Positions 3,912 to 5,977 of a DNA stretch of 64,000 nt are shown piece by piece. How positions within the stretch are numbered: the first letter of the stretch is position 1; each line of letters starts with the position of its first letter. The notes under the pieces are model-generated. The model did not search any database and was not told the origin of the DNA. It saw only the letters and a list, made by a program, of their open reading frames with translations. The position numbers were made by a program, and so were the translations under genes. Origin of the DNA: Pseudomonadota bacterium (GTDB taxonomy: Bacteria > Pseudomonadota > Alphaproteobacteria > Kiloniellales > JACOMY01); NCBI GenBank assembly GCA_029781795.1, contig JAKOWB010000408.1, positions 1 to 64,000 on the forward strand. The letters are read 5' to 3'.

Positions 3912-4020
3912 GGACTGCCCCTCTTGCCGGCCGACCGGTGACGGCCGAGCGGGGAAGCTAGCCAAGACGGCGCGTGACCGGCAACCCGGCCGGGAGCGGC
4001 GCAGCGGATTCGCCGGCCCC

Positions 4021-4062
4021 AAAAAGCGGAACGCCCGGACAGGGGGGAGTGCCGGGCGTTCC
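4021..4062 (-). terminator. Intrinsic terminator (end of candidate sRNA)
   Basis: Perfect 11-bp stem, arms at 4028-4038 and 4052-4062 with a 13-nt loop, followed on the minus strand by GC and a run of five T residues (4021-4025). It lies upstream of xthA and downstream of the amidotransferase gene, so it ends a transcript that starts right of 4062 and does not belong to xthA. Confidence 0.75.
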
Positions 4063-4192
4063 TGACTTGCTCCGCGGCGGTGGTCGTGGCCCGGGGGGAG
4101 GGGTTGGGCCACCGCGTCTTCGCGGAGGAGGAGGCGACGGTGTTTTGCTCCGCCGTCTCCGGACGGGGCGTCGATGACGCCGCCGTTCATGA
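4021..4192 (-). ncRNA. Candidate trans-acting small RNA with C-rich (anti-Shine-Dalgarno type) hairpin loops
   Basis: This 387-bp gap holds no convincing gene, but read on the minus strand it gives a compact structured RNA ending in an intrinsic terminator. In order: a GCGTC/GACGC hairpin (4168-4180), an unpaired CCUCCUCCUCC tract (complement of 4124-4134), a CCGCG/CGCGG tetraloop hairpin (4112-4125), a GUGGCCC/GGGCCAC hairpin (4086-4112) with a 13-nt loop, and an 11-bp perfect terminator stem (4028-4062) also with a 13-nt loop. Both 13-nt loops carry the same octamer CUCCCCCC. Alphaproteobacterial sRNAs of the CrfA and cuckoo-RNA type use CCUCC-rich loops to pair with ribosome binding sites. 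A weak promoter (TTAAAT at 4199-4204, TTGCGC at 4220-4225, 15-bp spacing) would start the transcript near 4192. No experiment or covariance supports it yet. Confidence 0.5.
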
Positions 4193-4298
4193 ATGAAGAT
4201 TTAAGCGCGCCCTGGCGCCGCGCAATGGCACAACCTCGGCGTTTCTTGCATGGCTGCTTGGTAGCGCAGGCGGAGAGGCGGAAGAAACCGTTTCGTCC

Positions 4299-5075: not shown

Positions 5076-5200
5076 GCCCCAGCAGATACGCCGGCCGCCG
5101 CCGCCGGGCAAGCCGGCCGCGCCGCAGGGGAGGGGCGCGGCGGCCGCCTAGCCCGGGCGGCGCGTTGCTGTCCGGGGCCCGGTCCTGTCAGGATCGGGCG

Positions 5201-5977
5201 ATGCCGCAGTGGTTCGATACGCTCCTGGCCTGGAAGGCGGCGGCGGTGGCCGCCTGGTTCCTGCTGTTCTTCGCCCTGGAGCGCTGGCGCCCGGCGGCGC
5301 CGGAACCGCTCGCCGTCACCGGCCACTGGCGGCGGGTCGGGCGCAACCTGCTGCTCTGGGCGCTGAACCTGCCGCTGTCGCTGCTGCTCGTGCTGCCGCT
5401 GACCGACTGGGCCAGCCGCCACGCGCCGGCCTGGCGGCCGGACTGGTGGGGCGGCTGGACCGGCCTTGCCCTCGACCTGCTGCTGCTCGACCTGATGATC
5501 TACTGGTGGCACCGGGCGAACCACGTGGCGCCGCTGCTCTGGCGCTTCCATGCGGTGCATCACCTGGATCGCTTCCTCGACAGCTCCAGCGCGCTGCGCT
5601 TCCATTTCGGCGAGGTCGCGCTCTCGGCCCTGGCGCGCGCGGCGGTGATCCTGGCGCTCGGCTTCCCGCTGGCCTCGGTGCTGGTGTTCGAGACCCTGGT
5701 GCTGCTGGCGGCGATCTTCCACCACAGCAACGTCCGGCTGCCGCCGCGCCTGGAGCGGGCGCTGTCCTGGATCGTGGTGACGCCTTCGATCCACTGGGTG
5801 CATCACCACCGGATCCGGCGCGATACCGACAGCAACTACGCGACGGTCCTCAGCCTCTGGGACCGGCTCTTCGCCTCGCGCAGCGCAAGGGCGCGCGATC
5901 CGGCCATGCCGATCGGCGTGGAGGGGCTGGCGGAGGAGGCGGCGCCGGCGCTGCTCGGCCGGCCGTTCCGGGCCTAG
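5201..5977 (+). CDS. Sterol desaturase / fatty acid hydroxylase family membrane protein
   Basis: Di-iron membrane oxygenase of 258 residues. The histidine clusters that hold the two irons are all present: HRANH (HxxxH), HAVHH (HxxHH) and HWVHHH, set between four to five hydrophobic segments beginning close to the N-terminus. Members hydroxylate or desaturate lipids such as ornithine lipids, carotenoids or hopanoid-like compounds; nothing here tells which. Start is the ATG at 5201 with AGGA about 8 nt upstream. It is divergent from the hydrolase at 4299-5075 and convergent with lolA, with a palindromic repeat immediately after its stop. Confidence 0.88.
   Translation: MPQWFDTLLAWKAAAVAAWFLLFFALERWRPAAPEPLAVTGHWRRVGRNLLLWALNLPLSLLLVLPLTDWASRHAPAWRPDWWGGWTGLALDLLLLDLMIYWWHRANHVAPLLWRFHAVHHLDRFLDSSSALRFHFGEVALSALARAAVILALGFPLASVLVFETLVLLAAIFHHSNVRLPPRLERALSWIVVTPSIHWVHHHRIRRDTDSNYATVLSLWDRLFASRSARARDPAMPIGVEGLAEEAAPALLGRPFRA

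Follow-up and report, generated by a model that had tools for sequence, protein, structure and literature searches.

The 64,000-nucleotide stretch of DNA analysed here (the window) contains, on the minus strand, a gap between a class-I glutamine amidotransferase-like gene (Peptidase_C26, PF07722; 4299–5111, minus strand) and xthA, an exodeoxyribonuclease III-like gene (Exo_endo_phos, PF03372; 3114–3911, minus strand). The question raised by this locus is whether the gap encodes a small RNA (sRNA) and, if so, of what family and with what function. The synteny of both genes, the former upstream and the latter downstream of the candidate, is conserved, and the conserved neighbourhood also includes lolA (PF03548; 6076–6747) and ftsK (PF01580; 6791–9214), both on the minus strand. 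In this genome a fatty acid hydroxylase-like gene (5165–5977, plus strand) lies on the opposite strand, with lolA on one side and the C26 peptidase gene on the other. Our best explanation, to which we assign a probability of about 0.7, is that the gap holds a diverged member of a conserved alphaproteobacterial sRNA family, the two C-rich loops of which would act in trans.

Folding of minus strand 4021–4204 gave −87 kcal/mol as against −62.9 ± 4.3 kcal/mol in shuffles (z = −5.6), and none of the 200 shuffles was as low. Going from 5′ to 3′ on the minus strand, the first element is the hairpin H1, GGCGUC-AUC-GACGCC (4167–4181), to which the fold adds flanking pairs. It is followed by an extra hairpin, GGAGACGGCGGAGCAAAACACCGUCGCCUCC (4130–4160), a CCUCCUCCUCC tract (4124–4134), the hairpin H2, GUGGCCC-AACCCCUCCCCCC-GGGCCAC (4086–4112), with 7 bp and the 13-nt loop AACCCCUCCCCCC at 4093–4105, and CCGCGGAG (4070–4077), apparently what is left of the small hairpin H3, which reads CUCCGCGGAG in relatives. 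The last hairpin is the terminator hairpin H4, GGAACGCCCGG-CACUCCCCCCUGU-CCGGGCGUUCC (4028–4062), in which 11 perfect base pairs enclose the 13-nt loop CACUCCCCCCUGU (4039–4051). The T-run GCTTTTT (4021–4027) lies directly 3′ of H4, in agreement with the original prediction that the gap ends in an 11-bp stem and a T-run. The prediction of two 13-nt loops with a common octamer is equally borne out, as the octamer CTCCCCCC occurs only twice in the 64-kb window, exactly in the loops of H2 and H4; CUCCCCCC is also present in both of these C-rich loops. Whole-window shuffles average 5.6 copies of the octamer, and hence it is the placement of the octamer that is notable, not its count. The CCUCCUCCUCC tract, on the other hand, had been placed between the larger hairpins; it lies 5′ of both C6 hairpins (4134–4124), is predicted to be mostly paired and is absent from the relatives read, so that a shared functional role for it is not supported.

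Both C-rich hairpins can form as proposed, but the 7-bp closing stem of H2 accounts for only ~2–6% of the computed ensemble. A longer alternative stem, CUCCGCG...CGCGGAG together with GCGGUGG...CCACCGC, gains 2.5 kcal/mol over the fold obtained when the 7-bp H2 is enforced, and the H3 remnant pairs with the upstream CUCCGCG in the best fold. The C6 runs of the window have an unpaired probability of ~1 in the ensemble and are still unpaired when the 7-bp H2 stem is enforced; the longer alternative stem in the H2 region likewise leaves C6 exposed.

Homologous sequences were found by several methods. When 38 whole genomes of the order were searched with blastn, 20 gave a match, including the window's own, and nearly all of the matches were to the 3′ hairpin. 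The original prediction had called for a covariance search with related genomes, and a covariance model (R1) built from 10 of these copies, with the window excluded, recovers the window copy at 4023–4112 with 40.6 bits (E = 4.7e-6 in 64 kb, shortened calibration). With the same model the RNA was detected in 48 of 61 order genomes, nearly always once per genome. By an exact-pattern scan of named genomes, the members within the order belong to Pelagibius, Fodinicurvata, Tistlia, Rhodovibrio, Denitrobaculum, Ferruginivarius, Aquibaculum and further Kiloniellaceae/Kiloniellales. A broader model (R2), for which 56 copies were used, gave matches in 45 of 385 sampled Alphaproteobacteria genomes (33 genera), and all matches in a phylum-wide draw fall within Alphaproteobacteria. 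Two near-identical RNA copies with xthA (L053 and L073/L171) lie at the two ends of contig 1 of genome G005, which could mean that the RNA is duplicated or that a circular assembly was left unclosed.

Covariation was analysed in several alignments. In the first MAFFT alignment of 19 copies H2 was misaligned and little covariation was seen, which was remedied by a smaller seed and a model-fitted alignment. In the 56-copy alignment, which was fitted to the model and hence leans towards it, 95% of the cells are paired, 19 of 24 stem pairs have two-sided compensatory change and 217 double-change cells are counted, compared with 58.5 when columns are shuffled and no more than 54 with the partners slid. 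The MAFFT seed alignment showed the same trend (15 double-change cells vs 5.6 in shuffles), and single-sequence folding, in which no model is involved, gave the same hairpins in most copies as well as a 5′ hairpin of variable sequence in most relatives. The conserved core of the family is made up of H2 with its exposed C-rich loop, a small CUC...GAG hairpin and the terminator hairpin with an exposed C5–C7 loop. The H2 loop is UCCCCUGCC in most relatives; its CCCC is invariant in 55 letters, while the flanks, U and U/C-G-C-C, have 0.3 to 0.9 bits and the entropy of the H2 stem averages 1.22 bits. In the terminator loop, 44 of the 47 copies read have a C run of five or more. Non-conserved loops had been named as a finding that would speak against an sRNA; it was found instead that the loops are kept and the stems drift. 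At the level of sequence comparison, these data show that the RNA structure is under selection, with loops kept while stems covary, and the contrast between loops and stems speaks for a role of the loops in pairing or binding. The inner stem of the terminator, CGCCCGG/CCGGGCG, hardly varies class-wide (alignment A4) while the outer pairs covary; this counts against the preferred explanation, since pairing by the loops alone is not enough to account for it. In copies from some families (L135, L136, L137, L139 and L140) a further run of 6–8 C, for instance tgcccccccgctcgca, is located upstream of the model match, which suggests that this lineage has a third C-rich loop.

The window copy is an outlier within this family. 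In the window 86 nt separate the −10 end from the start of H2, as against 37–48 nt in relatives, and the window copy therefore carries ~45 extra nt, a stretch specific to this copy that includes the 4160–4130 hairpin and the CCUCCUCCUCC tract. The first loop is CCCCUCCCCCC where relatives have UCCCCUGCC; a C6 in the first loop is also present in L012- and L052-type copies. The window has the C-rich-loop core, the covariation, the syntenic locus and the promoter of the proposed lolA–xthA sRNA family, with H3 degraded. In G001, the nearest genome from the window's own taxonomic family, no RNA copy was detectable at the xthA locus, which indicates that the RNA is dispensable and, like the divergence of the window copy, weighs against the preferred explanation. 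In another genome (G007, locus L263) only ~30 nt separate the C26 gene from xthA and no RNA copy lies between the two, a natural deletion or loss of the RNA.

The position of the RNA bears on whether it is transcribed independently. In each of the 19 relatives read the RNA is flanked by the C26 gene, xthA or both, on the sides expected, and at least one of ftsK, lolA, C26 and xthA is co-oriented with the RNA within about 4 kb at 32 of 40 class-wide loci, the usual order being ftsK–lolA–(C26 peptidase)–sRNA–xthA. The RNA being co-oriented with both neighbours and mostly located between them, it might be a cis element that does nothing in trans and serves either as attenuator or leader of xthA or as 3′ UTR/terminator of the operon upstream. 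We regard this as quite improbable. The distance between the sRNA and xthA ranges from ~0.13 to >3 kb, the upstream gene differs among copies (C26 peptidase, lolA and others), and the copies for which the flank read lacks xthA, such as L148, L149, L150, L155 and L160, argue for an independent RNA. The conservation of exposed loops with covarying stems also stands against a cis element, and no conserved alternative pairing was noticed on unsystematic inspection. Furthermore, a promoter motif, TTGYA-N15-YTARAT, is conserved directly upstream of the RNA, 37–48 nt upstream of H2 in relatives, and TTG[CT]A-N-YTARAT was found in 16 of 27 copies of the order vs 0.013 in shuffles. The corresponding boxes in the window are a −35-like TTGCGC (4220–4225, minus strand; TTGCAA/TTGTAA in relatives) and a −10-like TTAAAT (4199–4204, minus strand; CTAAAT/CTAGAT in relatives), with a 27-nt span to the −10 end and thus the same spacing as in relatives. 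From the −10 box it follows that the RNA probably starts near 4192, that is, inside the span of 4021–4204 given originally, which is structured as claimed. With the start taken from the promoter spacing and the end from the terminator, the proposed transcript would be ~170 nt long (4020–4192, minus strand); the RNA of relatives is shorter, ~115–125 nt as judged from their sequences.

A small protein encoded through the same sequence, which had been named as the other finding contrary to an sRNA, deserves hardly any credence. An ORF from ATG 4190 does stay open through to xthA in the window. Among relatives, however, the longest ORFs occur in all three frames, mostly cross the terminator and have no common peptide, and several copies are without any ORF. 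Taken together, the promoter motif, the variable distance to xthA and the lack of a shared ORF favour an independently transcribed RNA over an attenuator or 3′ UTR, and the possession of its own promoter (TTGCGC–TTAAAT) and its own terminator by the window RNA is a probable part of the best explanation.

As to the mechanism, the RNA would be transcribed from its own promoter and ended at its own terminator, and its two exposed C-rich loops would serve as trans-acting seeds for G-rich mRNA sites, e.g., GGGG-type ribosome-binding regions. The outcome would mainly be translation repression, as with NfeR1/ar14. Pairing of the C-rich loops of a trans-acting sRNA with G-rich mRNA sites is the most likely mode of action, which we infer by analogy with NfeR1/ar14 (PMC10746234) and PmaR (PMC6234868). 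A search of 8 genomes for GGCAGGGGA-N2-14-ATG gave 91 matches vs 19 for the reversed pattern. In the same 8 genomes, no orthologous gene has an exact GGCAGGGGA 2–14 nt before ATG in three or more genomes, and for this reason the excess is not counted as evidence. No consistent G-rich complement to the loops was present in the xthA leaders.

The loops could alternatively titrate G-rich sRNAs, as a sponge in mirror image of the CrfA–SisA pair, or an RNA-binding protein. Pairing of G/A-rich with pyrimidine-rich sRNAs is documented in Caulobacter (PMC12559287), and the inner terminator stem, invariant beyond the needs of pairing, could mean recognition by a protein; nevertheless, no partner was identified here, and we take titration to be rather unlikely. 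Also unlikely is a broader proposal in which a hitherto undescribed, class-wide sRNA family with two different C-rich loops and an invariant terminator core would act as a two-site regulator, residing beside the envelope and DNA-repair genes lolA/xthA since early in the class. Such a regulator might, for example, silence mRNAs with G-rich leaders and titrate a protein or G-rich sRNAs.

To return to the RNA as such, it is structured, is held by selection in many alphaproteobacterial families and falls below every Rfam 15 cut-off, and it is a candidate post-transcriptional regulator for poorly studied marine and saline orders. Its relatives, fixed neighbourhood and contrast between loops and stems make it directly testable in cultured strains.

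It remains to compare the RNA with known families. No family of Rfam 15 matched the window at the gathering threshold, and at permissive thresholds the window and its relatives gave at most weak sub-threshold matches to ar14/6C and unrelated families. No sRNA at lolA/xthA or in these genera was found in the open-licence literature, though a description in a subscription journal is possible; an Azospirillum sRNA paper does not deal in its main text with exodeoxyribonuclease, lipoprotein carrier or C-rich loops. That the gap holds a structured sRNA whose loops are C-rich and which belongs to a separate family, as the original prediction had considered possible, is well supported by the absence of an Rfam gathering match, the relatives at the same locus, the strong compensatory change and the conserved loops with drifting stems.

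The closest likeness is to ar14 (RF02344; NfeR1 of Sinorhizobium meliloti), also an intergenic alphaproteobacterial sRNA of ~120 nt with several hairpins and exposed pyrimidine- or C-rich loops, in which stems drift around conserved loops and the terminator hairpin bears one loop. In addition to this similarity in style, weak full-length matches to the ar14 covariance model were obtained for the window (19.5 bits) and for L061 (31.8 bits, the best relative), L054 (29.0), L059 (28.3) and L010 (26.9). All of these scores are, however, far under the cut-off of 58.8. In ar14 an identical CCUCCUCCC motif is present in three hairpins (PMC10746234), whereas the loops here are UCCCCUGCC and C5–C7, CCUCCUCCC is missing and the CCUCCUCCUCC of the window is predicted to be paired. 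The locus also differs: at 16 ar14-like loci across the class neither xthA nor the C26 gene is a neighbour, and R2 gives these loci at most 30.6 bits. Identity with ar14 was rejected on the basis of this locus test and cross-scoring. The 16 loci (L103–L118) are RNAs of other alphaproteobacterial families that form two or three hairpins, the loops of which read CCUCCUCCC or CCUCCCC; they score 30–57 bits, below the Rfam cut-off, and stand in tandem twice (L103/L117 and L104/L118). The cuckoo/CcsR RNAs of Rhodobacter are alphaproteobacterial sRNAs of similar style with C-rich loops. They are linked to DUF1127 genes and transcribed together with them (PMC10253847), in contrast to the single-copy RNA studied here, which has its own predicted promoter and is flanked by Peptidase_C26 and xthA and not by a DUF1127 gene. 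A diverged ar14 (NfeR1) or cuckoo/CcsR RNA is thus very unlikely.

The 6C RNA (RF01066), known from Actinomycetales (PMC4046766), resembles the candidate in having two stem-loops with six or more C. The window has two stem-loops of ~C6 (AACCCCUCCCCCC and CACUCCCCCCUGU), while the C run of the first loop is just CCCC in most relatives. The terminator hairpin of the window aligns to the 6C model with CUCCCCCC in the loop, but the score of 23.2 bits (E 0.63, shortened calibration) misses the cut-off of 47, and identity with 6C was rejected on this score. Likewise, 6C has neither the small CUC..GAG hairpin nor the UCCCCUGCC loop nor the synteny. CrfA had been put forward as an example of pyrimidine-rich loops, but that comparison is inverted, as the CrfA loop that binds SisA is G/A-rich and the pyrimidine-rich partner is the alpha-R8 RNA SisA with UUUCCUCCCU (PMC12559287). 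The loops here are C-rich, and a G/A-rich loop pairing with alpha-R8 RNAs is not among them. PmaR of Agrobacterium shares with the candidate a C-rich exposed loop, which has been shown to act in trans (PMC6234868). Unlike the present RNA, PmaR is one long spoon-like hairpin, is confined to Agrobacterium and a Rhizobium strain, has different neighbours and regulates mostly positively. The family described here may therefore be set beside ar14, 6C and PmaR as a test case for target choice by C-rich-loop sRNAs with differing loop sequences.
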